Shown here: in pieces, positions 39,745-64,000 of the stretch | How the letters are laid out: each line of letters begins with the position of its first letter | Numbering within the stretch: position 1 is the first letter of the stretch | NCBI GenBank assembly: GCA_015501075.1 | Contig: JADNYJ010000160.1 | Coordinates: 1 to 64,000 of the forward strand | Direction of reading: 5' to 3' | From: Gymnopilus junonius | Taxonomy: Eukaryota; Basidiomycota; Agaricomycetes; Agaricales; Galerinaceae | DNA length: 64,000 bases | Translations under genes and position numbers: made by a program | The notes under the pieces: model-generated | The model's input: the letters and a program-made list of their open reading frames with translations, nothing else | Databases searched by the model: none | Told to the model about the DNA's origin: nothing

Positions 39745-41728
39745 TCACTGTCGAGCCCTAACAATATTCATCACAAATGAACCCTCCACATAGAGTTCCC
39801 TGGTTAACTTTACCTTGACATCCACGTCCCAATCCCACAGCCTATGACCCCTACTGCCATTATAATATGAGTCCCTAATTTCCCGCGCCGCTCCTGCCTG
39901 GTTCTTGATATCCAGAACCACGTCCGACCAAGGCTTGTAGTTATGCATGCCAAGCAATAGGTGGCCTTGTCACGCAGAACCATAATACCTGATGTGCCAC
40001 TATTTTTGAATGCCAATGCAAGTGACTGATCCTGTCGGCGCTGCCAGTTAGCGGATTCGACCACTTCGACAACCTCCCAGGCAAGGTGATCGAAGATGAT
40101 ATGGAACGGTAGGCTGCTTGAGGCATGGTCAAATCGAGGTCATCAAAGCCGCCGGCAGAAACGTTGGGTGGTTTACTGGTTGTAATGGTAATGTCGACGA
40201 GATATTGGTAGTTAGATTTGAGAGCACCCTTGCGGGCGCCACATAGACATATTTGTCATGTATCGTGAGTCGTCTGCAGAATCAGTCACGGTTCTCCCAG
40301 AGCATCGTCCCATCTCCGTTGTAGTATGATTTGGCCATCGTATCAAGCATGTCTGACGGCGAGATGTTGGTTACAATGTCGCACCAAACGTTATAGTTGT
40401 GCATGCCAATCATGACGACGAATCGTTCGTACAGGCCGCTTTGGCTCTCAAAGAGAATCCCACCTGAAATTCCACTTCCGGCGAGTGTTAAGCGATGCAG
40501 GACACCCGGGGAACTGGGCACTCTACTCCAGTTAGTGTCAGACTCGGGATAAAACTGTGTCGCTGCAAACCCGTCAATTCGGGCGTCCGGTAGTGTCTTG
40601 ATTAGGAACTGATAGTTGGTGCGGGGTCGCATCCATTGCATAACATCGAAGCGGGATGGCACTGGCTCCTTAATGTAGATTCGTTCTCGCTTGTAATTTT
40701 GCGGATTTTTGATGGTGAATGTCTCCGTGGTGTATGTACGCACGTACTGACCCTCCTCGTCTTTATTCAGGTAGATGCCGTACATTGGCGTGCAGTTGAG
40801 GAGGGCCCGGAATAGGTTCGCATGTCCATCGACCGGCTGGAGCGGAAGCTCAATCGAGAGTCCAACGTTGGTGATGTTATAGGGAGACCTATTGTTGTCT
40901 ACTTTTTGATGCGCCAGGTGCGAAGCTCCCGTAAAGTCCGCTGGGGATTTCGCAAGTAGTCCTGCCCCTCCTGCGCCGCCATGACCTCCAGTCCATGCGA
41001 AAATAGTATGATCATCCGACGTTGCGATGATCTCTCGCTGAAGCCTAGTGAATGCGTTCTGGCCCTCCCCATATAAAATGGGCATGTTAATGCCAAACAA
41101 CCCGAGTAGGCAATACGCCATGTCCTCTATCCTTGTTGTCTGTCTATTCGCTGCCCACAACATCCTCGCTGCGATGCTGATTTCGCCAGAATGATTGACC
41201 AACAGCACTTGCTTGCTGATATTTGTGACCTGTGTGATTACCTTCCTCAGGCTGGACTTCGTCCCAATCTCCATCCACTTTTTGTCGTAGAACACTAAAC
41301 TTAAAGGCGCAATCAACTCCTGTAGGGTCCACCCTCTTGTGAACCACTTGCACCTACGGAACTGGGAGTCGACGTCGAATGCATTCTCGCTAGCTGAGAC
41401 GTCCACTAGGTAGGCGTAGCAAACTTCTGCTTCCTGGTACCACTTGTACATAGAGTTGATAGCTTCGGAGAGTTCGCTGCTGCTGGTCTTATCGATGCAG
41501 CAAGTGTCAACCCAGACGTAAGTGAACCCGTCAAGGAGAGCCTGTTTCGCAGGCTTTCTTGATCTTTGTGAAACCGCTCTTGCGCTCGATGGCCGGCTGC
41601 GTCTTGTGTGCGATCATCTCCTGATATGTAACCTCTTCGTCCCCCCAGGTGTGCGAAAGAATCGCATACACTGGTACCTTATTCCAGAAGTCCTCCACCA
41701 TCATTGTTTTCGCGTTGATAAGACGCAT
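39745..41728 (-). CDS. HET-domain (heterokaryon incompatibility-type) protein
   Basis: Fungal allorecognition-type protein. ATG at 41728 (MRLINAKTMMVEDFW). HET-domain blocks in order: YAILSHTWGDEEVTYQEM, YVWVDTCCIDKTSSSELSEA, MYKWYQEAEVCYAYLVDV, FTRGWTLQELIAP and YCLLGLFGINMPILYGEG. After a long C-terminal region come two similar modules: MIGMHNYNVWCDI...SYYNGDGTMLW (about 40300) and LGMHNYKPWSDVV...SYYNGSRGHRLW (about 39900). The frame shifts once near 41546, between KKACET and LLDGFTYVW. It meets TGA at 40282 between WENRD and the continuation RRLTIHDKYVY, and slips twice more before the end. The domain is unambiguous. Whether the stop at 40282 is real decides if the protein is 390-480 or about 650 residues. 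Confidence 0.8.
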
Positions 41729-43207
41729 GACTGCGGGTGCGTGTGCAGGGGGAAGGGGTTCATTAGAATCGATTACCAGTGGACGAAGTGGTTTTTACAT
41801 GAAGCAACATCGGTCATGTGTGATATCCTAAACTCATCGATGGGAACACTTTGATATCGATGTGAGGTAGCTGTCAGACCATGCCTTATCTGATTCAGCA
41901 GGACGAAGGTTCCGTTCAGCACACGGGAACCTCCCATTTAATTGAACACCACCGAGGCATTATATTTGCATGAACCTATGTAGGGAATAGATTCTAGAAT
42001 CTAAAGGATCGTCATGAAGAATGACGTATTCATCAGAGCTTAAAAACGAAAAGAACGAAGAGACCCATCCAGTAATAATAATATGCCCGGAGCTGGAAAG
42101 GTTGGTCGAGTGATGGAATAGATTCAGAGGGGAAGGATTGCCTGTGTTTGTTATTCTCAAGGTTGACAAGCAAATAATGACGTAGGCCTTTTGTCCGACC
42201 TGCCACTATCCAGCTTACCCTATTGCTTCTAAAGGGCCTCTTTGTATGATAGTAACGCAGAAAGTTATCCACAAGGACGCTCATCCCTTTCATGTCGCGC
42301 GAACTCGGTGCGTCTTCTCTTCTTTTCACTTTTGTTATTTAACGCAAATTTAACCCTAATTTCTTTAGCAATTCGTATGCGCCCTTCGACCTAGTCTGGG
42401 GACTCTGGGCTATACGCTCACATCGACACATCAGCTTATGATGTGAGGAGGCCGTATGATGCGCAAAGATGACTAAGACAGAAGGTAAGAACTGCAACAC
42501 TTTTGAATTCAGGTCTTTGCTCTATTTTTTTGTGGAAGAAATTTGGCTCATTTTTCCTTTTACCAGAATAGGACGCTCAGGCAAGGCGAAGATAGAAAGG
42601 TTGGATGACAGCAATTAAGAAGGTGGAGTACATGTTGGGATTTTATACTTATCTTCTTCTTAGTTCTTTGTCATCCTAGTCTGACAGCCTTTACTACTTC
42701 TCTATAGTCTTCGTTCCTCACTCATTTACGACGCGACGTAATATTGCGTGTCAGCTTGCAACTTTGCCTCTTCTACTCTGGTTTCATTCTTGATGCTGAC
42801 TCTCGACGGACTTTCCTTGATACGTTCTGTCTGGCTAGATTCGTACTTCACCTGGCTCGCCAAAATTGCTTTGAATTACTGCCTTCGCTGCTCACCGGCC
42901 TACATAATAGGGAACACACATTGCGGCTCACTATTCCCATTCTGAAATCTCGATTGTGACCCTTCCGCTAAATCGTATGAAAGTCTGGATCGAGCGTGCA
43001 TATGTCAATTCCAATACTATTTACAGCAGGAATAATGGAGGACGACTAGCGAATAAATCCGACATAGTAGTAAGCAGCAGGTGAAAACATCCTATCCCCA
43101 ATTTCCCGCAGTCTCTGATCAACGATCCCAAACGTATATCGCCTTCATAGGATGTCTGCTACGACGTAGGTGAGTACCAGTGATTCATAGTAAATATACC
43201 AACTTAC
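41729..43207. other. intergenic, no supported gene
   Basis: AT-rich sequence with short frames only, on both strands. The left end holds the upstream region of the HET gene. Confidence 0.45.
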
Positions 43208-43543
43208 TTAGACTCCCCGGTATCCCAGCGGTCTAACTTGGCGATTGTAGCAGCTGTTAGATATGTAGCTGACCCCGCAATTAGGGTCGCCACATCCTAA
43301 ACAACCAGGCCTGCTGCCTCCTCCACCTCCGCCGCCGCCTCCACCTCCGCCTCCACGTCCACCGGGATAGCCAGAATTACCTGGGTTTCCAGGGTAGCCG
43401 CACGGTGCGCCATCAGCGCCATTGTTGCCGTTATTGCCAGGGTACCCATTCCATCCTCCACCACCACCTCCGCCGCCACCTCCGCCACGTCCACCACAGC
43501 CAGGTTTTCCTGGTCTACCGGGTCGGCCTCCGTTGTAAGGCAT
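43208..43543 (-). CDS. collagen-like, cysteine-containing glycine-rich protein, 111 aa
   Basis: Single exon from ATG 43543 (MPYNGGRPGRPGKPGCGGRG) to TAA at 43208. Two polyglycine runs of 11-13 residues alternate with Gly-X-Y blocks (GYPGNNGNNGADGAPCGYPG, GNPGNSGYPGG). The C-terminal tail is different: GCLGCGDPNCGVSYISNSCY, with closely spaced cysteines. There is no signal peptide. A TATA box (GTATATATAC, 43618-43627) lies about 80 bases upstream on the coding strand. Glycine codons GGT, GGA and GGC are mixed. An upstream in-frame extension exists but lies beyond the TATA box, so I prefer this start. It is one of four such genes in 8.5 kb. No homologue or function is known to me; a structural or cell-wall role is only a guess. 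Confidence 0.7.
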   Translation of the reverse strand: MPYNGGRPGRPGKPGCGGRGGGGGGGGGGGWNGYPGNNGNNGADGAPCGYPGNPGNSGYPGGRGGGGGGGGGGGGGSRPGCLGCGDPNCGVSYISNSCYNRQVRPLGYRGV

Positions 43544-43617
43544 GTTTATGATTTGTTTTAGTCTCGAGTGTAGTAGTTTTGAGACTGTTGGTGCTGAAAG
43601 TAGCGGTAGGATAAGGA

Positions 43618-43627
43618 GTATATATAC
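43618..43627 (-). promoter_or_regulatory. TATA box of the collagen-like gene at 43208-43543
   Basis: GTATATATAC about 80 bases before the ATG at 43543. The other three glycine-rich genes have comparable boxes. Confidence 0.5.
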
Positions 43628-44549
43628 GAAATGGGGCGCAGCACTCACTGGCCTTCTTGGCTCTAAGAGGCTCTGTCGGCCCCTGATGTCTTCCGGCACA
43701 AGCCAGAAGAAAACTAGCCTGTCAGGTAGAACAGCATGCCTGTGCATCATGTTTTGCCTCTCGTTTGTCAAGCCTGTTCATGGTCTGTTCACTCCCTTGA
43801 ATTCGGAGGCTTTTCTCCGCCGTTGGGGGTAAGCGGGGTGATTGCTAGGATAAGTTATCTCATTACCAGGGCCGTGCCACTGAAAGAACATATGCGGGTG
43901 GAATGATCTTTACGTGGGACACCGCCTTAGCGTGTCATACCATGCAGTACTTTATCCTGGCTGTATCTTTCAATGTCAAATTTACTTACATAATTTCTCC
44001 CCGCAGGATTGGGTGTCGTTGGAAAAAGCCTATATCATGCGCGCTCAATTTATTTCCACTGATCATCTCCGCCGAAGCCCCAACCAAGTTAGCAGTGGAG
44101 AAATGCCAGAAATAAATGAAAAGAGTCCGACACTTGACATAGGTCAGGGAAGATTTATTGATGACATATCGACATGAGTTTGTGGAGCTTTCAGTATTCA
44201 CTAATTGTTATTGTCTTGCGGAATTTACCCTTGACACGCCCGCTTTATGCTCAGTAAACATAGTTCCTGTTGAAGGATATTTCTGGACCCTAAAACGTAT
44301 AGATAGCCCTGATTAATGATTGTGAAACCAAGTATCCTTGTGACCATCCATCTTTCTTCCACTGTCAAACAAGGTTTGAGATGGGCATGTGAATGCAGCA
44401 TGGCGATTTTTATTTCAGCGCCAAGCTAGGCGCCTTGATTTGTACCCCAGTGGTATAGCCTCATCCGCCTATTTTGGTCGAGCTTTCACTTTCCACGGAT
44501 GTACTTCCCCGGCACATGGGGACGGCCCAACTCCATATATTCTCCGGCG

Positions 44550-45360
44550 TGTTACCTACTCCGATGGGAAGTAGTACCCGATAAATACTTAGCAACTTTA
44601 AGTCATCATAGAAATAAATGGACGTAATAAACCTCGGCAGGCCGTGCGCTGTAATGGCCTTGAATGTAGATATCTAGTAGATATGTTATGTCAGCCAGTG
44701 CATTCCCGTCGGTACAGTATACTATCATCCTTATTACGAAGCAGGGATAGACCTCTTAGATGTGAAGTCCGTGGTACATACTGATGCTAGTCAGGGCTCT
44801 TTCCAATCATTTGATCACCACCCGTTTCTCGAATTCAGGTCAACATCGAACACGCAGTCCTATAATTTTTCAAAATTTATATCCGAAATAAGACTGACAC
44901 TGATTCTAAACCAAAGCACGACTGCATATTATATCCAAGCTCTCCATGTAAGAGTCGAGAGTGAACGCGGTGCGCAGGCAGAGCGCTTCTGAACTAAATT
45001 TAGAAACGGTATCATGTGACTGACTTAATCGCAAATTTGATTCGGAAATGCTGAAAACCTCCTGCTGTCGGACTCTCAAACCACCAAAACAATGGCGACA
45101 GGAAAGCGGTCATACTAAGTCAAATGCGACTTCAGAACGCACCTAGACATGCGACACTGCATACCGCACAGCCATTCCCAGCACCTCGTATCCTTTTCTG
45201 CGAAATTCTAAGCAACCGCCGCAGCTCAGCACTCCGAGTCATTTCTTTCTCTCCGTTTTAAACTGCGCCTCATTCATTCCAAATCATCTCCCAGCTTCCC
45301 ATTCTTGCTTTAGCCGTACAGAACGTAAGCAGAGTTAGCTAACGAATAAGGATTTATACA
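44550..45360 (+). repeat. copy A of diverged intergenic duplication
   Basis: In order it contains CCTACTCCGATGGGAAG, ATACTTAGCAACTTTAAG, TGAACTAAATTTA, GCACAGCCATTCCCAGCAC and GTTAGCTAACGAATAAGGAT. Each recurs in modified form at 46520-47110. Confidence 0.5.
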
Positions 45361-46519
45361 AGAAGCACTCCAGAAAGAACTGGTAACAACGCGGGCTCCG
45401 ACAAAACTCTTGTGAGCCCTCGGCCTTCTGTGTTTTATTCTCTTTGATCTTTATCTACTAATTACTTCCGTCTGTTGTTGATTTTTCTAGCGACTCGAGG
45501 TTCCACTCTCATGGGCCCTCGGCCACCCGACCGATAATGCATTACGAATTTCAAAGAACACACCGGTTACTTACCTTTTTCTGAATTTCTTTCGCCGGTT
45601 CGTTCTGATATGCTTTTATCACATCTCTCTAGATTCAATCCTTCGCCCCTTTACGATACACTTAAACTCCTCAGCGTTGAGCGTCTGCTTGTAAATAGCT
45701 CCCGCTGTTCAATTTGCGCTGTCGATCTGGATTCTCTACGCGGACGTTGCTTCATATGTTCGCTTTGGCTATACTCTTATTCCAAAGGCTCATAACTGTC
45801 TGCTAACCATATAAATTTGGACGTTTGTTTACTTCCTGTGGTCTATTCATGCCATTAAAGGAACTGAGGCTCAAGCGCGCAGATATGAAATTCACTGCTG
45901 TTTGTTACAAAACTGATGAGGGCAATTAGCAGCACGTAAAATCAACTCACTCCTGATTTCCAACAACCTCCGATTAGTTATTGCAAGCATATCTGGTCTT
46001 CGTAGGTAAGACGACTCCTTCGGATGCTCATATCTTTCAGTACTGGTCAGAAGGCATTCCGCAGACTGTCAACCACAATAGTATCCCTATCCTATTTTTT
46101 TTTCCACTCTTTTGTCAACCTTTATCGTGGTGACTTAGTGGTCGGGGACATCTCTCCGCTACTGCAGCTAAGCCAAATAAGTTTGCTGTTTCGAGATATA
46201 CGGGATGGACTCTCAGAATAAGGCACAGCGCGTCACTGAAAGAGACGTATGTGGAGTTTTGCATGGTTTTTGGCATGTCATACTAGGAAATATCATTCAT
46301 TCAAAACAAGTTAATTTCTAGCGCTCTACCTCCATAATCGAACATCACTAGCTCAGCCAATTCCAAGCGACTTACTAATGCTAATATTCTCCACAGACTA
46401 CTTTCTTCATTGAAATATACTCACTATCTAAACGTTTATACGCTCCTGTTTCATTCCACAATTACCCTAACCGACTACTCATTAAGCAAAGTTCTGTAGT
46501 CTCTGGTCCTTCACTAGCT

Positions 46520-47110
46520 TCCCTTCCGATACCTACTCCGATACGAAATATTGCCTATCGCCATAAAAATATTTAGTAACTTACAAAGACCCTCAAAAGG
46601 TGTGCGCCGCAACTTCCTTCACTTCAAGGAGAGAATAAGTATTGTGCCTCTTCGTTGAGAAACGAAGCAAGAGAAGGACTGGCAACTTCGATACTTCAAA
46701 ACAACAAACCAATTATATTCTATCACTCCTTCGAGTTAAACTTCAATAATGCGAAATGACGCGACAAGAGAGGCGAAACAGGACTTGCTACTAGCTAGCC
46801 ACTTGGCATCACTCGCGCTGAACTAAATTTACCAAAGATCACATGATAATGGCAAATTTCAATTCCATAATCGCTATCCTCTCTCGAGCGATACCAGTGA
46901 ACTATACACCCTGTAGATGGCAGTCGTACTGAAGTGATTACAATTCATAAATGCACCTGCCTCCGCTCCAGCCACGCACAGCCGTTCCCATCACGTACCT
47001 TTCCTGCTACAGTTCATTCCTCCTAAGTTCCTCCATCGTGAGCCATTCTCCCAGTATCAACTCTTGCGTTGGCTAACGTAACAAGGATTAGGAAGGGATA
47101 TAGAAATGAC
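46520..47110 (+). repeat. copy B of diverged intergenic duplication
   Basis: Matching blocks in the same order: CCTACTCCGATACGAAA, ATATTTAGTAACTTACAAAG, TGAACTAAATTTA, GCACAGCCGTTCCCATCAC and GTTGGCTAACGTAACAAGGAT. It is shorter than copy A, so internal deletions have occurred. Confidence 0.5.
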
Positions 47111-47858
47111 GTGAGGTCCAGAAAAAAGGTGAATCTTTGCTCGACTTTTTTTTGTGGAGAAATTTGGACACATCTGTCTTCGTGTCAGAAATAATATTTT
47201 AGCAGAGGATTGAAGGAAGTGGACGCGATATATCGAAGCTGATAGCGTGTTACTGATAATGAAGAACGGGCAGACTGAATACACCGGGTATTTTGTCCTG
47301 GTTGTCGTTGGTACATCGTTCTGACGTACACCCCTACTAGGCCTCATTTCGCAACTCTGTTTACAATCCATTTGTACATCGCTATGCACTGAACGTCTTA
47401 AGGGTTCCATTTCCGGCTTCAACTAGGCTTCATTTCCTATGTTTCCTATAGCTATGCTTCACGTTCATGCGCCCTGCTTTCTCGGTGCTCGTCACTTGCC
47501 TGTACTCTCGAAAACCATCTATGATTACTACTTTTCGTGGACGTCTCATTGGACCAATCCGTTCAATAGCCGCGTTTACTTTGGATCCGGATTTCCTTTC
47601 TGACAACGATAACATGGTTCTGTCCGGTTCACTTAGGTCCTCATTGTCGGCGCGCGTTCTTCCTTCTAGAACCTAAGTTTCTATATGTGTATCAGATCCA
47701 TGTGTAACGTGCCAGGGAAATGAGCACCAATTTAACCAAGCTCGATATCTCCTGTTTTATACTTCCTAATATCCAAATGCCTGCATCGGAAATTATCCGG
47801 CATCCGAATGTGGAGGCGACTGTTTTCATTTCTTCCTGATCCTCTCATTGGGGGAACT

Positions 47859-48034
47859 TATATAAAATTCCTTTCTTTCATTCGTTTTCTTACAGTGAAC
47901 CCCATACTGAGGATTCGCATCAGCAGAGCGAATCAGCAACTTTTCTGCGATTAACTGCTCAAGTCTATCAAAGGTATGTCGCCCTCTATGTCGAATCGCA
48001 TCATGTTCAAGAAGGCTTATATGTCTTTGAACAG
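47859..48034 (+). promoter_or_regulatory. TATA box and 5'UTR intron of the collagen-like gene at 48049
   Basis: TATATAAA at 47859-47866. A GTATGT donor at 47974 and an AACAG acceptor ending at 48034 define a likely 61-base leader intron, 14 bases before the ATG. Confidence 0.55.
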
Positions 48035-48048
48035 AAACACTACAGACG

Positions 48049-48318
48049 ATGAGTAACGGCGGTAACGGTGGTGCTGGAGGCGCGCCCGGTGCTCCAGGTG
48101 CTCCAGGTGCTCCCGGTGCTCCCGGCGCGCCCGGTGCCCCAGGTGGCAGTGGTGGTGGAGGAGGAGGAGGTGGAGGCGGTGGCGGTGGCGGCGGTGGCGG
48201 AGGAGGAGGAGGAGGAGGAGGAGGAGGAGGGCAAGGAGGTGCAGGCGGACATGGAGGAAGCGGTGGCGATGGAGGGACTAGTGGTGGTAGTGGCGGTGCG
48301 GGTGGTCAAGGTGCATAA
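48049..48318 (+). CDS. collagen-like polyglycine protein, 89 aa
   Basis: Single coding exon: MSNGGNGGAGG, then about seven Gly-Ala-Pro triplets as in collagen. GGS leads into an uninterrupted run of 27 glycines (48151-48231) and a Gly-rich tail with Gln, His, Ser and Asp (QGGAGGHGGSGGDGGTSGGS), ending GGQGA. No signal peptide, no aromatic residues and no Cys. The glycine run uses GGT, GGC and GGA in a mixed order for its first half, and GGA repeats only near its end. The first methionine after the probable leader intron is used as start. Together with its neighbours it suggests a local family; function unknown. Confidence 0.7.
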   Translation: MSNGGNGGAGGAPGAPGAPGAPGAPGAPGAPGGSGGGGGGGGGGGGGGGGGGGGGGGGGGGQGGAGGHGGSGGDGGTSGGSGGAGGQGA

Positions 48319-48908
48319 AGGGAATCTTTAGTTGGGAAAGAAGTGGGTGCATATTAGGATATGTCTTCCACGACATTATCTGCGACATTCTGTGGTTCAT
48401 CGATTCTTCGTTTGCCATTTCATTTGAGAACTTCTGACCTTAACATTCTATCAGGAGTGTCACACATTCCGAATATCAGAGTTCTACATATCATTTATGT
48501 CAATATTATTCGAAGACGTACTTCTTTCGAACCGCAAAGGGTAAAAGTCATGCTTTCTCTAGCTGAACTATAGGTTACGCACCGCAAGTCCTCATATTTT
48601 TAGAGTGAAAGGACATATGATGTGAGTAATCCTCGGAATGAAGAATTCGGTGGTTTCCAGAGGGAGAAAATAAAAAACAAACATTAAGATGTCATGCTGA
48701 AATGTGCAGGGAAGATCTATCGAAAAGAAAACAGCAATCGGGGGACTGTGAGAGTGTGGCCGAAACTTACAAGAATTCACCCCCGACACGTGTCCTTTCC
48801 CTTTCGAAAATCAGAGTTGATTCGACTTGATTGTATTAGCACGCGCATGACCTTCCAATGATTCCAAATGCGGAGGATATGCATTACATTCTGAGTCCGT
48901 TTGGTAAG
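48319..48908. other. intergenic between two collagen-like genes
   Basis: 3' region of the gene at 48049 and the far upstream part of the gene at 49074. No coding content. Confidence 0.5.
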
Positions 48909-49059
48909 TATATAAAGTTCTGTCTACCATGTACTGAAGTCTTCAAAGGCGCGCTCAGTCCAACGCTGAACTCATACAAATCAGCAAACTCTCCGTCTTT
49001 TCTCTCGGTGCGTTTTGTTTTTTTCTTTGTGATTCCGTATAATTTAACTTTTAAATCAG
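48909..49059 (+). promoter_or_regulatory. TATA box and 5'UTR intron of the collagen-like gene at 49074
   Basis: TATATAAA at 48909-48916. A GTGCGT donor at 49008 and an ATCAG acceptor ending at 49059 define a likely 52-base leader intron, 14 bases before the ATG. The spacing equals that at 48034-48049. Confidence 0.55.
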
Positions 49060-49073
49060 AACGACTTTAGATA

Positions 49074-49832
49074 ATGAGTGACGACGGCAACGCCGCCCAA
49101 GGAGGTGCTCCTGGTGCTCCCGGCGCGCCAGGTGGTGCCCCTGGTAATCCCGGTGCGCCAGGCGCTCCTGGTACTCCTGGTGCGCCGGGAGGTTATGGTG
49201 GAGGAGGCGGTTACGGCGGAGGTCCCAATGGTGGAGGTGGAGGAGGTTACGGAAGTAATCAAGGTGGGGGCTTTTGGAGCTGGTCTGGCGGTGGCCAAGG
49301 AGGTGCTGGAGGATTTCCAGGCCAACCAGGTCAGCCAGGTCAGCCGGGCGCTCCAGGTGCACCTGGTGCATATGGCGGGGGAGGAGGAGGCGGTGGAGGT
49401 GGTGGCGGTGGCGGTGGCGGTGGTGGTTGGGGAGGACAAGGCGGTCATGGAGGTTACGGAGGCGGTCCAGGTGCTCCCGGCGCTCCAGGTACCCCAGGAG
49501 GCAATGGCGGCGGAGGATTTTGGGGTGGTTGGGGCGGGGGTGGGCCGGGCGCTCCGGGCGCTCCTGGTGCTCCAGGAGGCTATGGTGGTGGTGGTGGTGG
49601 GGGTAGGGGAGGCGGAGGCGGCGGCTATGGATATTGGGGCGGGAACGGTGGAAATGGCGGTGGAAATGGAGGTCATGGAGGAAATGGAGGTCACGGAGGG
49701 GGAGGTCATGGAGGAAAAGGAGGGGATGGTGGTCGAGGAGGTGGTCGTGGTGGTCGTGGTGGCGGCCCAGGTAGCCCAGGCTCTCCAGGTCAAAGCGGAG
49801 GTGGGGGCGGTTTCTTCGGTGGTTGGTTCTAA
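49074..49832 (+). CDS. collagen-like glycine-rich protein with aromatic patches, 252 aa
   Basis: Single coding exon: MSDDGNAAQGG, then alternating collagen-like blocks and polyglycine. The collagen-like blocks include GNPGAPGAPGTPGAPGG, GQPGQPGQPGAPGAPGAYGG, GAPGAPGTPGG and GSPGSPGQSGG. Polyglycine runs reach about 16 residues. Short aromatic islands punctuate the chain (GGGFWSWSGGG, FWGGWGGG, GYGYWGG), and it ends GGFFGGWF. Almost every third residue in the collagen-like blocks is Gly, and Pro replaces hydroxyproline-type positions. No signal peptide. Glycine codons are mixed. Such a chain could phase-separate or form a structural filament, but that is inference. The opposite strand is also open and is a shadow. 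Confidence 0.75.
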   Translation: MSDDGNAAQGGAPGAPGAPGGAPGNPGAPGAPGTPGAPGGYGGGGGYGGGPNGGGGGGYGSNQGGGFWSWSGGGQGGAGGFPGQPGQPGQPGAPGAPGAYGGGGGGGGGGGGGGGGGGWGGQGGHGGYGGGPGAPGAPGTPGGNGGGGFWGGWGGGGPGAPGAPGAPGGYGGGGGGGRGGGGGGYGYWGGNGGNGGGNGGHGGNGGHGGGGHGGKGGDGGRGGGRGGRGGGPGSPGSPGQSGGGGGFFGGWF

Positions 49833-51493
49833 GAAAACTCGACTTACGCTCTCTCATCATTTGACAATCCATACAAACTTTCCTACCTTCCGCTTCATAA
49901 GTTCATGCCTGTACGCCCTCAATTAAATATTCTTCTCAGTATCTTTTGTACTTGTAGCAATGCAACAAAGTTTACGTGTTGAACAAAATTCCGTTTGGTA
50001 CCACCGCTGCGTACATTAGTATTTATTCTTCATAAGTGAAGACAAATATTATCTACTATGTACAGAAAACCCACATCAACTTATAAGACAGAAAAACCGT
50101 GAAACTCAAAGGATGCCCAATAAGCATAGAAAAGATTTTTGTATTACGGGCGACAATACAGACAAACCAATCATTTGCATTTCATATCTACCAGCTTCTA
50201 GAAAATGACAACATTCCCTTCTTACTTATCTTCCTACTATGTTCCACTATCAACTCACCTTCAGGGTGCAATTGAATCAGAAAGGCAGTACCACTTTAAC
50301 ACCATTATTCGATCACGCAACGACTTCTTCGTATTTTCCCAAATCTTATTTGACAGTGTGTAATACGCCCACGGTGAAGTACAACCCAGTGGGTACTAGA
50401 TCCAATAAATGCCCAAGCACTATAACCACCATTTTCCAATCGCGTCGATCTCTGGTGTTGCTGGTGAAACATTACGGTATCTCTCTCAAGCTGTCACCAC
50501 TGAGAAAGATATAATCCGGGAAGAGGTATATTATTTTTACGCATCGCCAGAATTTGTCCTCCGACATTCGAGAACAGCCCAACAGGCTTTATAAATAGGG
50601 CTTATACGACGAAGGCAGCTCGCCGATTACTATTTCTGGTGCGTGCCGATTTTCCGAGGTCAGGCGCCCAATTACAGCTAATGGCCAGTGACTATCTTTC
50701 TATTTGAAGAATCATATCAAGTTTCCTGCATGTATCCGACAATGGAACTGTATCCTATGACAGTGAAAAGTCAGGGCATTGTTCTACACAGCCTGGTCCG
50801 CTATGAATGATGTGCAGTTGCTGAATTTGGATATGTTAACATTCAAATGCAACGATATACCCGCTTATCCTGTAGTCTGACCCTTTTTTCTATATGCCTA
50901 GACTTGGCATAAGTTTAATGAAGAATATGTCTAAATTTTGACTGTCCGATGACCGTAGGACTATTGTTGTCAAATTGAGGGTACGAAAGCAGAGCGCCTA
51001 TTTTGGATATTGGGCGCCAACCGACGTAACCCCGCCCTGTTCATACGAGCTCCCCGGTTTGTTTGACAGGAAAAATAATGATTTTCCACAGAACGCGTTT
51101 CAGGATTCCATATTCTCGCAATGTATTATATTCTGAATTGACAGGAAGATTGCTGCTGTCCCTGCAGAATTCCGGCAGTTCACATGTGGAGTGAATTTAA
51201 TAGAACTGCCTCATGGAAGATGAAATCGGAATTCCACCCTTTATGGATGGTTATGATAGTAACTTGATAGCCAAAAGATGAATTTGGTGCTTTTAGACCA
51301 AGTAACGGGACTGCTACCGGGCTCAAAGGTATTCCGAGAGGTTTCTATTATCTAAATTAGCAAGGCTGTCTCATTGAACTTGCAATTTGAGCGATAAGAT
51401 TCAGCGCATGACACATATACGACATCGAACTACTACGCATGTGTTGCAAAACATGGAACCATCCGTGACTCATGACTTCAACCCGAGGCATTG
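49833..51493. other. intergenic, no supported gene
   Basis: One short frame at 50239-50514 (MFHYQLTFRVQLNQKGSTTL) has no recognised features. It may be chance. Confidence 0.4.
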
Positions 51494-51503
51494 CATATAA
51501 ATA
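51494..51503 (+). promoter_or_regulatory. TATA box of the polyglycine gene at 51580
   Basis: CATATAAATA, 77-86 bases before the ATG. Confidence 0.5.
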
Positions 51504-51579
51504 CTCTGACGAACATATTCAAGAGCAACAGCTGTTAGTTCAACCGACCCAACCTCAGTAACTGACATCTTCTTGCGCT

Positions 51580-51747
51580 ATGGGTAGTAACCTTAATGTC
51601 TGCCGTGGTGGCGGTGGTGGCGGCGGCGGCGGAGGTGGAGGAGGAGGCGGAGGAGGTGGAGGCGGCGGCGGCGGTGGTGGTGGTGGAGGTGGAGGTGGAG
51701 GAGGCGGCGGTGGAGGCGGTGGTGGTGGAGGCGGTGGAGGATGGTGA
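51580..51747 (+). CDS. polyglycine microprotein, 55 aa
   Basis: Too short to stand out by length but distinctive: ATG at 51580, MGSNLNVCR, then 45 consecutive glycines, a single tryptophan and TGA at 51747. The glycine codons GGT, GGC and GGA are interspersed irregularly, with no GGG, so the run is not a pure trinucleotide repeat. A TATA box at 51494 is correctly placed. It has one Cys and one Trp and no signal peptide. It shares composition with the three collagen-like neighbours but lacks proline. Protein expression is unproven. Without transcripts it could also be a G-rich DNA tract that happens to be open. The opposite strand would read polyproline and has no ATG-to-stop gene logic. Confidence 0.55.
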   Translation: MGSNLNVCRGGGGGGGGGGGGGGGGGGGGGGGGGGGGGGGGGGGGGGGGGGGGGW

Positions 51748-52253: not shown

Positions 52254-54271
52254 CTATACACGCCTCAAGGAAACTCCTGCAGACGGGACATTCAGAACCA
52301 TTTCACCACAGTCGTCTGAGAAGTAAATGATATCTACAGGTGCACCGCAACAATGGCCTGGGCTATTGATTACCCAGTAAGGCATGGCACCCCAATGTCG
52401 CCAGCCTGTCAATGGCCTATAACCCTTAGCAAGTCTACGAGGTCAAAATAAGTTTCTCATACCCATGATATTCAGAACATCTAGTAAGGACGTACCTAAA
52501 TTCTCGTTTCCTGCCTGTTGAGGCCAAAGCCATCTTCTCTGACCTATCCTCCCGAAGAACGGAAAGGATGTCGTTGCCTTTCAAGTCAAACTTATGAGCC
52601 CAGAGGGATCCGCTTTCTACATTGATGATTGCTTCGCTCTCCCCGTCTTTCGACTTCCACGTCCCGGCATATTCCTTTGTCACAGTTTTGACTTGAAGCC
52701 TATCGAAAACTGGCTGAAAGTGCTCGAAAGCCTCAATAACTATTTTTTTCTATGTCTTGATAGGAACCCGTCATAAGGGCAATCACGCCAAAACCCGAAG
52801 TTGGATTGAAGGCGAAGGCTGAATAATGACCATTAAATTCGCCTACTGGTGTCGTCGAAGAAAAGAGTTAGCAGAACTTAAGAAAGATGATGAACACGCC
52901 TACTCTTTTGGTAGATACGCCGCTGTCGACCAAAAGTATCGGGGATCTTGACAATTTCCCAAAGTAGACCCACTTCAGTCAATTCGTCGGTCCACGCGTG
53001 AACCGGTCTTAACCATTCTCTAAGCGTAGATGGTGTGATGAGGGATTCAGGTCGATTAGGGTCCAAGAATGTCTGCATCAATTTGGAAAGATCGGCTATG
53101 GAAGAAAGCATTCCATACGAAGCGTTCATAGCCTTTAGATCTACATTCTTGATTGAAAAGACAAGTCCGTCAGCTTCACGATTTGCCCTAAGCGCAGTGC
53201 GTAAAATGACCGACCAGAACATCGTTGTCAGTAGATGCAACTGCCAATCGCTCTCGATTTTCCTCAGTGACTTGAAAAGAGCTGGAATGCATGCCCAATG
53301 GTTTTCAAAATATCCGGTGGATTAGCTCTGAGAACGACTTAGATGCACAACCGAATCCATCAGGGGCATCCACTTCTTTGCAAACCATTCCAAGAGTGCA
53401 TACCCAGTATTAGAGTACAAAGGTTCAAAATCAGGCAAATTGGAAAGCGGATGTTTGCTGACTGAGTCCAAGATTTGTTCATCGTCCAACGGAACATCCT
53501 TACTGTGGTAATGTGGCAAGCCGGTGCCTTCCATATCCGTAGGCCAATTCGACAATTGTGGTGGTGGAAGGTCTCGCGGAATACCTGCGAGATGCGACGC
53601 TATTTGTCGCAGAGTGATGGGTTCAGTGTGAGAATGAAACTTCGTATCTTCCGTCAAATGCTGCTCCCAGCTTCCAGGAGCGTACGAGAAACGAGGAAAA
53701 TATTTCCTGATGTCGTCATCCCTAAAGAAAGTAATTTTAGTAGTAGTACGCCTCATTGATAAATATAGGAACAGTCACCCAACTAATGCTAGGGACAAAA
53801 AACCTACCAAGCGACGGCTCCTTTCTCTTTTAACATCCACAACTTAAGAGCAGTGAAAATTTTGTAAGAGAAGCAACGCGGTAAATTGTGTCTTCATCTA
53901 CTTCTTCACAATAGTTTGAGTTTTTCTGTTTCGCGTTCGTAAAGCCGTATCCTCGCGTAAATATGGGACCTTTGGGACCAACAATTGCTACGTTCAAACT
54001 TTCGATTGATCCGCCTTTATAGAGACTTCGCAAACGGATGTCTAAACGACGTGCAGTAGTTTGGATTTCAGGATCATTTGCCGTCATGCCGTCGAGCGGG
54101 AGAACTGGGAGCTCAGGGAAAAAGAGACCAGGTTCATTGTTGTCGATTAGAGACACAAAGTTGTGTATAAGGTGATTATGGGCCCGCTAGATAAGAGACT
54201 ATAACAACGGTGCAGAAAGCGAGAATCACGATTATGGTATGGCATGTAGGTTGCTCCGAGTATGCGGCCAT
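52254..54271 (-). CDS. beta-lactamase-like serine hydrolase, copy 1 (several frame slips)
   Basis: PF00144-type serine hydrolase (class C beta-lactamase/LACTB fold), acting as an esterase or peptidase. The best start is ATG 54271 (MAAYSEQPTCHT), followed by a signal anchor (IVILAFCTVVIVSYLAG). The catalytic SxxK is YRVASLTK and the YxN motif is YSNTGYALL. The C-terminal lipocalin-like part reads EYAGTWKSKDGESEAIINVE, WVINSPGHCCGAPVDIIYF and SLRRV, then stop at 52254. Single-base slips occur near 54183 (CCC), 53856 (TTTT), 53385 (GG), 53310, and an extra A at about 52745 (AAAAAAA). Same exon order as the intact paralogue upstream, so a tandem duplication. Either pseudogene or assembly error. 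Confidence 0.75.
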
Positions 54272-54635
54272 GTTTCCAAGACTGTGGAACGGAAAGTCTT
54301 CAGTTGAGCATAGTAACCTAGAATGAGTTGTGAAATGGCTTCAAAAATCATGACCTTCGGGACGCTGCTAGGGGAACTTGGAGGGAATAATGAGAGTGAC
54401 GTAGAGTCGTTGACCCCACATAATTTTTGCTGCATTAACGGTCACGTGGGCGGGCATGCCGACGTCGCCGTGCCTGGACCCCCGAATTGATTTCCAAAGA
54501 CATCCTCATCTGCATGTACAGATACTATGTCCAATTAGAGTCATAATGTATAAATGAAGGTTGAGTCTAACCATCTTCAAGATTTAAGACATCCCTGTAC
54601 CATAAATATCCATAGCAAATCATTAAAGCAGATGC
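54272..54635. other. intergenic between tandem hydrolases
   Basis: Promoter region of copy 1 following the 3' end of copy 2. No coding content. Confidence 0.45.
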
Positions 54636-56744
54636 TCAGTCAGTCAATCTCTCCAACGAAACTCTCGATGACGGGATTTCTAAAGTTCTGCCATCAGGAT
54701 GTTCAACGAAGTATACTATATCCACAGGCGCATCGCAGCCAGAGTATCCCGGATCATTAATCACCCACAAGGGCATGCAGCCATAATGGGCCTTGCCACT
54801 ATAAGGTCTGTACCCTTTCGCCAGCCTTTATATTTCAATCAGCATGAAACGTAAATATAAGCGGTGACGCGCACTCACCTAAACTCGCCTACTCGTCCAG
54901 TTGAAACAAGAGCGACTTTCTCTGGAACATCGTCCCTCAAAACCGCAAGGATGTCGTACCCATGTAGCACAAACTGGTCTACCCATAACGAGCCGTCATC
55001 AACGCTGATAACCAAAAAAGTATCCAGATTCTCATCCAAGCCACCCCTCTCTGATTGACGCCCCAAGCAGCTGGCTAATATGCCTTGGTCAGACGCTTTC
55101 AATCTCCATGTACCTGCATACATTTCCCTTGCTACCTCCTCGTGGACCATGTCAAATGCCTTTTGAAATAGCTCAAAGGCCCTCAAGACGACCCTTTGAC
55201 TGTCGCTATATGACCCTGTCATGAGCACAACTACACCGAATGAAGAAATTGGATTGAATGCAAAGCCGGAGTAGTGGCCCATAAATTCTCCCACTAGTAG
55301 CAAATAGTGAAAGCCACCCATTAGAGCGAGATCAAGAAAGCCAAGAATCATATGCTCACGTTTCTGATACACCCTTTGTTGGCGCCCATAGGAGTCGGCG
55401 ATCTTTATAATTTCCCAAAGTAACCCAACCTCCGTCTTGTCGTCTGACCAGGCATATGACTGACGAAGCCACTCCCTGGATGACTGTGGAGAAATGAGTG
55501 CATCAGGGCGGTTAGGCTCCAGGAACATCTGCATGGCTTTGGTTAGATCTGCCAATGAGGAAAGTTGGCCATAAGAGGGATTCATGGTGCCCACGTCGAC
55601 GTCCTGGTAGTAAAGATTGCAATCAATAAAGTCAAGGAATGAGTTTCAGGAATAAAGACACTCACAACTTCCCAGCTATCTTGCGAGGCTACAGCTACGC
55701 GATCTTTCAAGTCCAAATCCCTCGTTGTGACAGCATACGCAGTCGAATTCATTTTAAGTTTACGAAACACATCCATACTTAGCAATTCCTCAAACGTGCG
55801 CGCGTGACCGCCCCTGTATCGATGAGCTGTTAAAGCGGCCATACCGAGGAGTGCGTACCCAGTGTTGGAATATAAAGGCGGGCTGCCTGGTACGACAGTA
55901 AGGGGATGCGTTGAAAGAGCTGTTAGAATCTCTCTCTTGCTTGGAGAACGCCTTCGGTTGTAATGAGGGAGTCCAGATCCCTCCATGCTTCTCGGCCAGT
56001 CTGCCAACAAGGCAGGAGGAAAGTCGCGTGGAATACCAGACATGTGCGAGGCGACCTGTTGGAGAGTAATGGACTCGTGAGGACGGTGAGGGGGAAAGTG
56101 AGGATTATTAGACAGTGAGTGCGATCTTCCACGACTCGCCCAGCCTCCTGGAGAGTATTTGAAGTAAGGAATATAGTTGGTGATGTCGTCGTCCCTTGTG
56201 GTTGCAACGTCAGTCAACAAGCATGGCACGACTGCTAGCAAGATCACACTTACCACCTAATCATTCCTTTCTCCTTCAAGATCCAAAGCTCTAGTGCCGT
56301 AAACAGTTTCGATACAGAAGCAATCCTGTATACCGTATTTTCATCGACATCCCCTCTTAGCCGTTCATCCGTCTCATTTGCGCGTCTAACCCCGTACCCT
56401 TTCGAAAACACGGGCCCGTCGGCTGTGACAACGGCTACACTAAGGCTGTCGACCCATTGAATATCCGCAAGCTCCTTCAACATAGCGTCCAATTTCCTCG
56501 CGGCTCGTCGGATGTGATAATTCTCGGTGTAGTTAGTACCCCTGGAAAGCTCAGCTAGAGGAGGGAAAAATGGGCGGCATATTGGATGCACTGGTTCTGA
56601 ATGTAATAGCCACGCTGGGATAAACGGGAATAGATGGGGAAGCCAGTAAGGAAATCGAAGGTGGCTAAGGAGGCTGTGGTACCCAGCAACGTAGACAACG
56701 CAAAAGAAGGGGACGTATTTCAGCAGATGAGGGAGACGAGCCAT
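54636..56744 (-). CDS. beta-lactamase-like serine hydrolase, copy 2, intact
   Basis: Same family and exon plan as the gene at 52254-54271, but every exon joins in frame. ATG at 56744 (MARLPHLLKYVPFFCVVYVA, signal anchor). Catalytic SxxK in YRIASVSKLFTALELWILKE, YxN in PLYSNTGYALLGMAAL, then SSLADLTKAMQMFLEPNRPD and GHYSGFAFNPISSFGVVVLM. A C-terminal domain follows (MYAGTWRLK, DDGSLWVDQFVLHGYDILAV, WVINDPGYSGCDAPVDIVYF). Stop at 54636-54638. Probably type II membrane-anchored or secretory with a lumenal catalytic domain. Substrate unknown; fungal members act as esterases, transpeptidase-like enzymes or carnitine-type hydrolases. Confidence 0.85.
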
Positions 56745-57938
56745 AGAAGAATTCGTGGGGAGTCCTAAACAGAGTAGTATAGAGGTAGCTAGCAGTATTG
56801 CAACAAACTATGAGACTTCCGAGTACAAGCCAGCTTGAAGTGTAGGAGGAAGGCCAACCTGAACATGCGACAGGCAACATGCAAGTGTAAAAATAGAACG
56901 GAAGTCCTTTGCCAAATAAGCGTCCATAGTGCTTACTCCAAAGTCGTGAGTCACCCACTCGACCTTGTGCGCAACCACTGCCTATTACTCGATTCCAGTT
57001 CTTGTGCTAGCCTATGTTTAATGTATCGCTCAGCTGCGGGCATTTGCTATACCCTTATCCGATGGACGTGCCTATCTCCTTCGGCAATTTCAAGTACAAC
57101 TTGCACATCATCAATGGTCACCAACCTGACCGTCCGTCCTGACTCCTCACACCGTCCTTTCACGTTCGAGGTCTATTGAACGTGGCTAAGATCTACCTCA
57201 AATTCTTCTAATATTATCAGCGTGGCGAATCATGACAAAATCATGACCATGGGTGGGAACGCGTAAGTATACTGTATATACCATGAAAGCGAAGGCTGAC
57301 TTTGTAATACCAGCGCATGGGGCAGAGTGAGAGAGTAGGGAATGGCGCTTGAAAAAATCCGAAGTTATTTCTTTGACAATGGTAGCGCTGCCACTGAGAG
57401 AGCTCCTCGGTACCGCTCGAGATGCGCCGCCTGCAGCCCGGCCGGAGAAGGCTTATATTTAATTCGAATTAAAAGGCTTTTCCGCGAAAAGGCCTTGTCG
57501 CCTGCTCCCTGTTTTGATCTCTTTCCATGTAAACATTTCGTACAAGCTCATGCTCTGTAATGGAGAGATTTTTGGTAGCAAAGAAGCCTCAAAGTTGCGT
57601 CCATGATCCGCTGAAAACCACGTTCATGCCACATGGTTCGATCAAAGTATGGTGCCTTCGCATTATCATAGTTCATTACTATGACCACTTACCATGACCT
57701 ACGTATCGAATTCTTCCTTTCGCATCACCACGTAGTCTCGCAGATTCCTCGCTTGGTTGTCCCCGTACTTTTCAACTTTCAAACCGTCCAGCTGACCCAC
57801 TCAATGGTCAACCTGCACGATTCGCTAAAATGTCGCTCGTATCCTCGGAAAATATCGCCCGTTTGTGCGGCATAGCTCGTACTATATAAATGTGGATACG
57901 AGCGATGAGCTCCGTAGGATACTCGCATATTCCTAGCG
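56745..57938. promoter_or_regulatory. divergent intergenic region; TATA box of the xylanase gene
   Basis: Contains ACTATATAAATG at 57880-57891, about 50 bases before the xylanase ATG. Otherwise only unsupported short frames, for example 57342-57560. Confidence 0.5.
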
Positions 57939-59706: not shown

Positions 59707-60778
59707 GTATAAATTTGGGCTGTTATTCCGGGTGCTGGAATTATACGTAGCGTACTCAAAAATAAACGGATTCTTTTGTTTCCAAATATCCGTTCCGAGT
59801 ATGTCCCGTTGAATTTCAAATTGCCTAGAACTCGAGGACATCTGGGATTCGAAAAGCGCGGCGCGCGACGCGGGATCAAAACGCGGCGGCAAACTCCGGA
59901 AGCTCACCTAATCACCACTACAGCGTGCAAATGGCCTCAAAAGTGGGAGTATACAACTGAATTCTGCAAAGGCCTTCGTGTAATTAAATTTATATATCTA
60001 ATTGATAGTAATCCCCAAAATATTTGAAGAAAAGTACATTCAACGTCGCATAATCAAACGAGGAAGCATAATGCTCAACTGGAAGGCAGCATCAGAGGCC
60101 CATTTGAAGTCCTCTTCTCTTAGAAATCCTCAGAGATGCAGAAGGCTATAACAGTAAATTTCTGACAGCTTCATGCCCTGCAATTATTATGCAGAGAGCA
60201 AAGACTGGGCTCGTGAACAGTGCTTTATCCGATCACGCTCCTATTTCAAATGTGCACGTGCCAAAGCTTGCCCGCCAGACGTGCCGATGAGACAATCAAG
60301 CCAAGATCTCGCCCTCGCTTATTTCTAATATTTTCAAAATTTATTAGGTGTACACTAATTACAAGCTAGAGACGCTTTGTGGATTGTGGCAAGCCAAAAA
60401 ATGGTGTAAGGCTTACAGGCCAGCTGGGCAGTGGGCAGCGAGCTTAAAAAATAAGTCAGCCGCCTTTTCAATTTGGGGCTTTTTGGTGGGGGCGCACGTG
60501 AGGGGGTCGGGTTTTGCCGCCGCGCAAAGCGCGTCGCATCACGCGGCGCGTTTTCCGAATTCCAGATTTACTGTAGAACTCAGTGGGTGAAAGTTGAAAG
60601 TGGTAAAGGGCACAGCCACATGAAATATCTAATCTTATCGGTCTACTTTGTGTGGTGTTGTTAGAACTGGAAGCCCTTGAAAGTCGCGCTCACCGCGACT
60701 TCGCCTTTAAGCAACTGTGAACCATTTCATCGAGCCCGACGGAGAGACGAACTCTGACGGCGTCGACACCTCTTTTCC
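59707..60778. other. intergenic with an inverted-repeat element
   Basis: A GC-rich block at 59828-59904 (AACGCGGCGGCAAAC core) has an imperfect inverted partner at 60508-60580 (GTTTTGCCGCCGCGC core). Both are flanked by similar sequence ending near ATTCGAAAAGCGCG and GCGCGTTTTCCGAATTC. This is probably a MITE of about 0.75 kb, or ends of a deleted transposon. No coding content. Confidence 0.45.
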
Positions 60779-63700: not shown

Positions 63701-64000
63701 CCCTTCTGTCAGACCTCAACGCGTCTTCGGTTGTGGGTCAAATTCACCCAAGGTCGTATTTCACCCGATTCGACCAAGCACTGTCATTTGGGCCTCAATA
63801 CATCCCAGGACTAGCAGCATACATGTCCTATCCTGCCCATGCGGAGCTCGTTCTGCTCTCAGTGAAAATCATCACCAAGCTCTCCTCATCAACTTCTCCG
63901 TCGCCCTTGGTCACGCTCATAGAGCGGAGTCAAGAGTCCGAGAGGATTCTAGGCGGCTTCACGCGGATCATGTCTTCGGAATCGACGGACAACGTTCAGC
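60779..64000 (+). CDS. NUP192: Nup192/Nup205-family nucleoporin, 3' part outside window
   Basis: Large alpha-helical inner-ring scaffold of the nuclear pore. ATG at 60779 (MNSIHRLRDALVNVLAAPDH). Introns at 60949-60996 and 61437-61489 join in frame. A long exon then runs to the window end without a stop. Recognisable family blocks are FARQALFIAQQLDCSEKYVA, RRRHLVDSLRFLLEATE, YLLTAVFVSLDPIDPLSAVA, ELKGAIFETVASFCEPGAG and LYPATIPFLKLLGVLIHTP. About 1,000 residues are visible of a protein usually 1,700-2,000 long. No frame slip occurs in 3.2 kb, in contrast to many genes to the left. Confidence 0.9.

Follow-up and report, generated by a model that had tools for sequence, protein, structure and literature searches.

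Extended forms resembling polyglycine II have been discussed for silk, and among fungi the MCL1 protein of Metarhizium is a surface protein provided with a signal peptide and an anchor. Polyglycine itself has been observed in neurons and in the brain of disease models, where the available parts of two reports describe branched fibrils of about 5 nm together with ribbons lacking amyloid periodicity (PMC13383697, PMC13367101). The present work concerns a cluster of four short, glycine-dominated genes (genes 1 to 4) of the mushroom Gymnopilus junonius, contained in the window analysed here, that is, bases 1 to 64,000 of contig C69 (87,316 bases) in an assembly of 58.0 Mb and 898 contigs. The reading that in our view fits them best, and to which we give an even chance, is that they may encode leaderless polyglycine proteins that self-assemble inside the cell. 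The four may represent a young family and are likely real genes, whose material function we infer.

G. junonius AH 44721 is included in a set of new genomes for which the available portion of the source paper mentions Illumina and PacBio reads, assembly across the set by Velvet, AllPathsLG or Falcon, Quiver polishing, and an annotation aided by RNA-seq (PMC8480192). Two additional sequences allowed the cluster to be examined from an evolutionary point of view. The first is contig C265 (35,085 bases), a second haplotype that likely corresponds to the copy of the sister nucleus. It follows C69 collinearly between 40.5 and 68.7 kb, as blocks with 93-99% identity, and collinearity is broken by a 6.8 kb insertion and by smaller gaps; C265 bears all four genes. 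The second is a fifth copy, a paralogue of gene 1 located outside the window at C69:83144, 31 kb past gene 4, with an allele on contig C551. The four genes are as follows:

Gene 1: 43208..43543, minus strand; 111 residues, with a Gly-X-Pro start, a run of 11 glycines (Gly11), an Asn-Gly linker, Gly13 and a Cys-rich tail
Gene 2: 48049..48318, plus strand; 89 residues, with an MSNGGN start, (Gly-Ala-Pro)7, Gly27 and a Gly-rich tail
Gene 3: 49074..49832, plus strand; 252 residues, with alternating Gly-X-Pro blocks and Gly runs of up to 18
Gene 4: 51580..51747, plus strand; 55 residues, consisting of MGSNLNVCR, Gly45 and a Trp

These translations agree with an earlier sequence-only reading of the locus, which had described four frames of these lengths dominated by glycine. 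Glycine accounts for 48 of 111, 58 of 89, 147 of 252 and 46 of 55 residues in genes 1 to 4 (43, 65, 58 and 84%, respectively), the longest runs comprising 13, 27, 18 and 45 residues. Elsewhere in the window, the longest run of GGN codons reaches 3 codons on the plus strand and 5 on the minus strand, and maxima of 3-5 codons were obtained when 64 kb were simulated 40 times with a first-order Markov model, so that the runs found in the four genes cannot be attributed to chance. The termini differ from one protein to another, as had been noticed before: gene 1 contains six Cys, four of them downstream of the second Gly run; gene 3, which also presents Tyr/Trp/Phe-Gly blocks and an RGG-type stretch, carries 21 aromatic residues and finishes in FFGGWF; and gene 4 ends in a single Trp. 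The maximum N-terminal hydropathy (Kyte-Doolittle, 11-residue window) does not exceed 0.18 in any of the four proteins and therefore no signal peptide is visible, in keeping with the previous description.

The proposal that these proteins are collagen-like as a family did not survive. The Collagen triple helix repeat (PF01391) matched neither the four proteins nor the locus in a scan of the genome, and the longest tract of consecutive Gly-X-Y triplets amounts to 7, in gene 2; genes 1 and 3 do not go beyond 6, and gene 4 has none. The collagen family was thus rejected on three grounds, namely the missing Pfam match, the short triplet tracts and the lack of a leader. Two weak, sub-threshold Pfam Collagen matches, on contigs C134 and C108, turned out to be repeats of the Gly-Val type in one frame, and were not considered relatives.

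Evidence for selection on the encoded proteins comes from the comparison of gene 1 with the fifth copy and from that of the two haplotypes. A 55-base stretch upstream of the fifth copy aligns with the one upstream of gene 1 at 74.5% (E 0.002), and the coding and 3' parts align as well. Over codons 9-77 of gene 1, the differences at codon positions one, two and three are 10 of 69, 7 of 69 and 45 of 68. Within the Gly runs they are 0 of 24, 0 of 24 and 18 of 23 (none, therefore, at the 48 first and second positions). Isolated Gly codons, which in-register slippage is unable to homogenise, gave 1, 1 and 9 differences of 12 at each position, while for codons other than Gly the figures are 9, 6 and 16 of 29. 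The second run comprises 13 codons in gene 1 and 14 in the fifth copy and is aligned without indels, although in a shorter alignment one base of the fifth copy appears inserted at the extreme end of this run; the first run has 11 codons in gene 1, and its equivalent in the fifth copy is one base short. Since third positions are saturated and yet both glycine and run length have been kept, the gene 1 lineage is, as judged from these alignments, under purifying selection for its protein.

A similar picture emerged from the haplotypes. Substitutions in the Gly codons of the four genes fall 2, 2 and 34 times at positions one, two and three (34 of 38 at the third), and within runs of five or more glycines 29 of 30 are at the third position. 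At GG triplets outside the genes no such bias was seen: 31 of the 1,366 bases that make up GG differ, and 13 of the 683 that come next. Compared with these, the first and second positions of Gly codons have changed less (4 of 584; Fisher p 0.015) and the third positions far more (34 of 294; p 1e-9). In genes 1 and 4 taken together, the Gly codons present 0, 0 and 17 changes of 94 per codon position. The alleles of gene 1 exhibit 11 differences, 10 synonymous and 1 nonsynonymous, and those of gene 4 exhibit 7, all synonymous, with an identical protein in which Gly45 is exactly retained, resulting in 17 synonymous changes, 1 nonsynonymous change and no indels for the pair. Gene 4, to judge from its alleles, is probably also under purifying selection. 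Genes 1 and 4 thus behave as protein-coding sequences, gene 1 versus its paralogue showing a similar pattern near saturation, and we hold with considerable confidence that both are real protein genes.

Gene 2 presents a different situation. It contains ten identical Gly codons in succession, and in C265 its run is 57 bases longer without loss of frame, coding for Gly49 where C69 has Gly27 (including a Ser replaced by Gly); a further 3-base difference separates the alleles, with 6 nonsynonymous versus 10 synonymous changes. The argument that mixed Gly codons exclude slippage as the sole origin of the runs needs a correction for gene 2, in which slippage or unequal exchange is at work; no indel was found in genes 1 and 4. 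In gene 3, C265 carries in-frame changes of 9, 18, 6 and 3 bases.

The control regions of the genes contain the following elements, the introns having been predicted by inspection:

TATA box of gene 1: 43620..43626, minus strand; 83 bases before the start
TATA box of gene 2: 47859..47865, plus strand; at -190
Predicted leader intron of gene 2: 47974..48045, plus strand; GTATGT to an AG at 48034 or 48045
TATA box of gene 3: 48909..48915, plus strand; at -165
Predicted leader intron of gene 3: 49008..49070, plus strand; GTGCGT to an AG at 49059 or 49070
TATA box of gene 4: 51496..51502, plus strand; at -84

Each gene, as the earlier reading had stated, possesses its own TATA box, and the fifth copy has a TATAWA box at -89, so that five of five copies are equipped in this way. 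In contrast, a TATAWA sequence at -220 to -60 on the same strand was found for 151 of 1,724 control positions (8.8%). The predicted leader introns occur in the two genes whose TATA box is distant, namely genes 2 and 3, which are also alike in their start and composition; their longest mutual upstream match is 17 bases. As to the idea of a diversified family, gene 1 alone has a demonstrable paralogue; for genes 2, 3 and 4 the upstream matches are short, none exceeding 18 bases. When the upstream DNA of genes 1, 3 and 4 was used as a nucleotide query in the assembly, only the sequences themselves and their C265 alleles were matched. An argument based on promoter conservation was abandoned, as the haplotypes diverge too irregularly to allow it (by 0 to 33% in 200-base steps). 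On the opposite side of gene 1, an intron of the GTAAGT type seems to begin directly after the stop codon (43150-43207, minus strand) and is kept in the copy at C69:83144; it is possible that the 3' untranslated part of gene 1 holds an intron.

The search for relatives was carried out with genes 1 and 3 as queries in a database of 5.8 billion proteins, G. junonius entries included. Gene 1 yielded 175 candidates and no homologue at E 0.001, and gene 3 yielded 7,992 candidates and no homologue at E 1. In the same database, a control open reading frame from the window (40285-41451, minus strand) had 7,908 of 7,999 candidates scored, with a G. junonius match at 98%. Both genes match themselves strongly in the genome search (204 bits for gene 1 and 362 bits for gene 3) and still produced no hits; they must therefore be absent from the database or annotated very differently. 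Protein searches of the species' own genome gave Gly-rich matches, among the matches listed, on C69, C265 and C551 alone. A Pfam search at E up to 10 assigned none of the four proteins to a family, and no PDB sequence matched genes 1 and 4 at E up to 1. For gene 3, one PDB sequence reached E 0.01 or better, namely 8zxl, a chain labelled 'spindle fibril/axial fibril'; the match was interpreted as compositional, its best stretch lying in the Gly-Ala-Pro part (residues 11-41) and no stretch passing alone. The RGG- and YGG-like stretches of gene 3 resemble those of glycine-rich RNA-binding proteins, a class that was discarded as no RNA-recognition motif and no Pfam family at the above threshold was present. 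A literature search by titles and the beginnings of abstracts, whose scope left out most subscription papers, found no fungal polyglycine protein. The earlier suggestion that the system is undescribed is thus favoured by the lack of homologues and of published counterparts, in so far as the homology search was limited to genes 1 and 3.

How might such proteins act? Being leaderless, TATA-driven, short, dominated by glycine and clustered, the genes suggest bulk, intracellular products. A possible scheme would begin with the transcription, likely in quantity, of genes 1 to 4 from their TATA promoters. The polyglycine runs (11-49 Gly) of separate chains, which lack side chains for packing, could then pack through backbone hydrogen bonds, in a ribbon or in a polyglycine-II-type geometry, whereas the Gly-Ala-Pro segments would serve as spacers that leave the chains soluble and extended. 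The ends would determine cross-linking and partners: gene 1 by its Cys-rich tail, gene 3 by blocks of aromatic and RGG type, and gene 4 by bare polyglycine. The outcome might be a condensate or protein material of mixed composition in the cytoplasm, perhaps proper to one stage or one tissue. Each step of this path, from sequence to self-assembly and from there to a tissue role, is inferred. A more ambitious version, which we put forward tentatively and regard as rather doubtful, would have the four proteins form a dedicated cytoplasmic polyglycine material, co-assembling via runs of selected length, as the useful and regulated counterpart of the harmful polyglycine aggregate of human disease.

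A number of observations weigh against self-assembling polyglycine proteins, and several of them point to the main rival explanation, namely that these are young, lineage-restricted GGN repeat genes that are mostly decaying, gene 1, together with its paralogue, being the only one that works or once worked. This account seems to us possible, although unlikely to be the right one, and the same can be said of its proposed origin, in which the repeats would have grown by in-register slippage and unequal exchange and some frames would stay open through composition alone. In C265, gene 2, with its longer run, stops early, at 87 residues. Gene 3 in the same haplotype differs by seven single bases (in total, a multiple of three) and, as assembled, is open to the same end with 245 residues, three of its segments lying in another frame. 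The density of single-base gaps is higher there (7 in 0.76 kb) than in the haplotype alignment as a whole (72 in 26.6 kb). Each haplotype has an interrupted fifth copy, although the interruptions differ, and the tail of this copy ends ahead of the Cys-rich end of gene 1. Repeats of GGN codons can be open in other frames too, as illustrated by an antisense frame of 273 residues over gene 3. The annotation, despite being aided by RNA-seq, has left no protein in the database matching gene 1 or gene 3, although a neighbouring gene is present, and in this work genes 1 to 4 and their splicing are predicted from the DNA. Inside the runs, the haplotype argument itself loses weight: Gly codons differ more often at their third positions (34 of 294) than the sequence outside does (about 2%), an excess indicating that in-register exchange of units within runs also contributes, and such exchange by itself would keep GG at positions one and two. 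With regard to structure, single-sequence AlphaFold2 predictions gave no structure (mean predicted local distance difference test scores, pLDDT, of 40.6 for gene 1 and 45.8 for gene 3), and tomography of disease-related polyglycine, according to the available part of the report, could not assign either of the classical forms, polyglycine I and II, which its authors bring up, in runs that were not those of the mushroom (PMC13383697).

Against general decay stands gene 4, whose Gly45 has the same length and whose protein is the same despite 7 silent changes, as do the TATA boxes present at all five copies. Part of the frame changes, in addition, may be errors, given that 72 of the 88 gaps between haplotypes are single-base and that a neighbouring frame of C265 with a beta-lactamase domain has two single-base extras (the Nup192 frame and the interval 62883-63737 have none). 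The single-base differences of gene 3 may stem from misread G-rich DNA or may be genuine, and the fifth copy may be decayed or the victim of read errors; with respect to errors, it must be considered that the genome paper, in its available portion, reports PacBio besides Illumina reads (PMC8480192). Frame-breaking indels in the runs at neutral rates had been named by the sequence-only reading as a finding that would refute it. No indel is seen in genes 1 and 4 and the indels of gene 2 are in frame, whereas the seven one-base differences of gene 3 in C265, which may be assembly errors, and the early stop of gene 2 there fall on the adverse side. Two further explanations concern the type of protein. 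The Gly11 and Gly13-14 runs of gene 1 and its paralogue could build a compact, disulphide-clamped bundle of polyglycine II, in an ice- or surface-binding protein, a likeness suggested by the snow flea antifreeze protein, which is such a bundle. The second run of the paralogue, nearly fixed in length, and the six Cys would fit this, but disulphides are unlikely in the cytosol for a protein lacking a signal peptide, the Gly runs are pure and not Gly-X-X repeats, no PDB sequence matches at E 1 or better and AlphaFold2 was uninformative, so that we find this improbable. Even less credit can be given to secreted, collagen-like coat proteins of the MCL1 type: the Gly-X-Pro triplets of genes 1-3 would agree with them, but no signal peptide is visible, the consecutive triplets do not exceed 7 and Pfam Collagen is not matched. 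A signal peptide encoded in a separate exon further upstream would revive this explanation, which we disfavour.

The surroundings of the cluster offer some additional observations. A segment of 73 nt at the 5' end of gene 2 (48022-48094, plus strand), spanning the end of the predicted intron, the start codon and the first codons, has an exact copy at C16:101192, and 69 nt of it are found exactly on C712 near 183731. The surroundings on C16 and C712 are unrelated, and these copies may reflect a filler-type insertion carrying the start codon. In the spacer between genes 1 and 2, the haplotypes diverge by 23-33% at 45100-45500, compared with 0-12% in the adjacent 200-base steps, and short, diverged direct repeats occur at 44553-45016 and 46530-46845, with a spacing of about 1.8-2.0 kb, perhaps an old duplication or element. 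Adjoining the cluster, at 40285-41613 (minus strand), there is a frame with HET (heterokaryon incompatibility) and fungal fruit body lectin domains. The insertion mentioned above (C265:570-7337, about 6.8 kb) is present in one haplotype only, and its point, 41072, lies inside this frame. Downstream of gene 4, several frames with a beta-lactamase domain (serine hydrolase type) extend over 52881-56807 (minus strand), where a repeat (73%) links 52924 and 55380; they are probably tandem genes. Positions 59834-60573 of the window are unmatched on C265.

Should the genes be expressed, the consequences would be of some interest. Gene 4, together with gene 1 and its paralogue, would constitute a polyglycine system found in nature, in which evolutionary evidence points to the importance of run length. 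How cells use or tolerate long polyglycine, approached in the papers cited here via human repeat-expansion disease, would become testable, and an unannotated, possibly self-assembling class of proteins would be added for mushrooms.

It is worth comparing these proteins with those of known systems. Silk is secreted, very long and contains poly-Ala, in contrast to the mushroom proteins, which are short and leaderless. The Gly-Gly-X regions of spider dragline silk (PMC5187823, in its available part) have in common with them repeats dominated by glycine. Glycine-rich RNA-binding proteins, as presented in the accessible part of PMC13413351, are rich in glycine like gene 3 and differ in the features for which that class was set aside. 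MCL1 of Metarhizium is fungal and contains Gly-X-Y triplets, as the mushroom genes do, but the available text attributes to it a collagen domain (PMC7776561), whereas in the mushroom proteins the triplet blocks are short, a leader is lacking and there is polyglycine instead. Also fungal is cgnA of Aspergillus fumigatus, a collagen-like gene within a gene cluster, for which the part of the source at hand does not describe polyglycine (PMC8545126). The polyglycine of the NOTCH2NLC repeat disease (neuronal intranuclear inclusion disease, NIID) likewise has a long, pure Gly run, the mushroom runs being of 45 residues in gene 4 and 49 in the C265 allele of gene 2. There, however, according to the available part of the report, the protein is the product of a GGC expansion in disease (represented by a 100-Gly construct; PMC13367101), whereas in the mushroom the codons are mixed GGN, are found in two haplotypes and belong to clustered genes. 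It is this repeat-disease polyglycine that the mushroom proteins would most resemble in their way of working, although with mixed codons and with signs of constraint.

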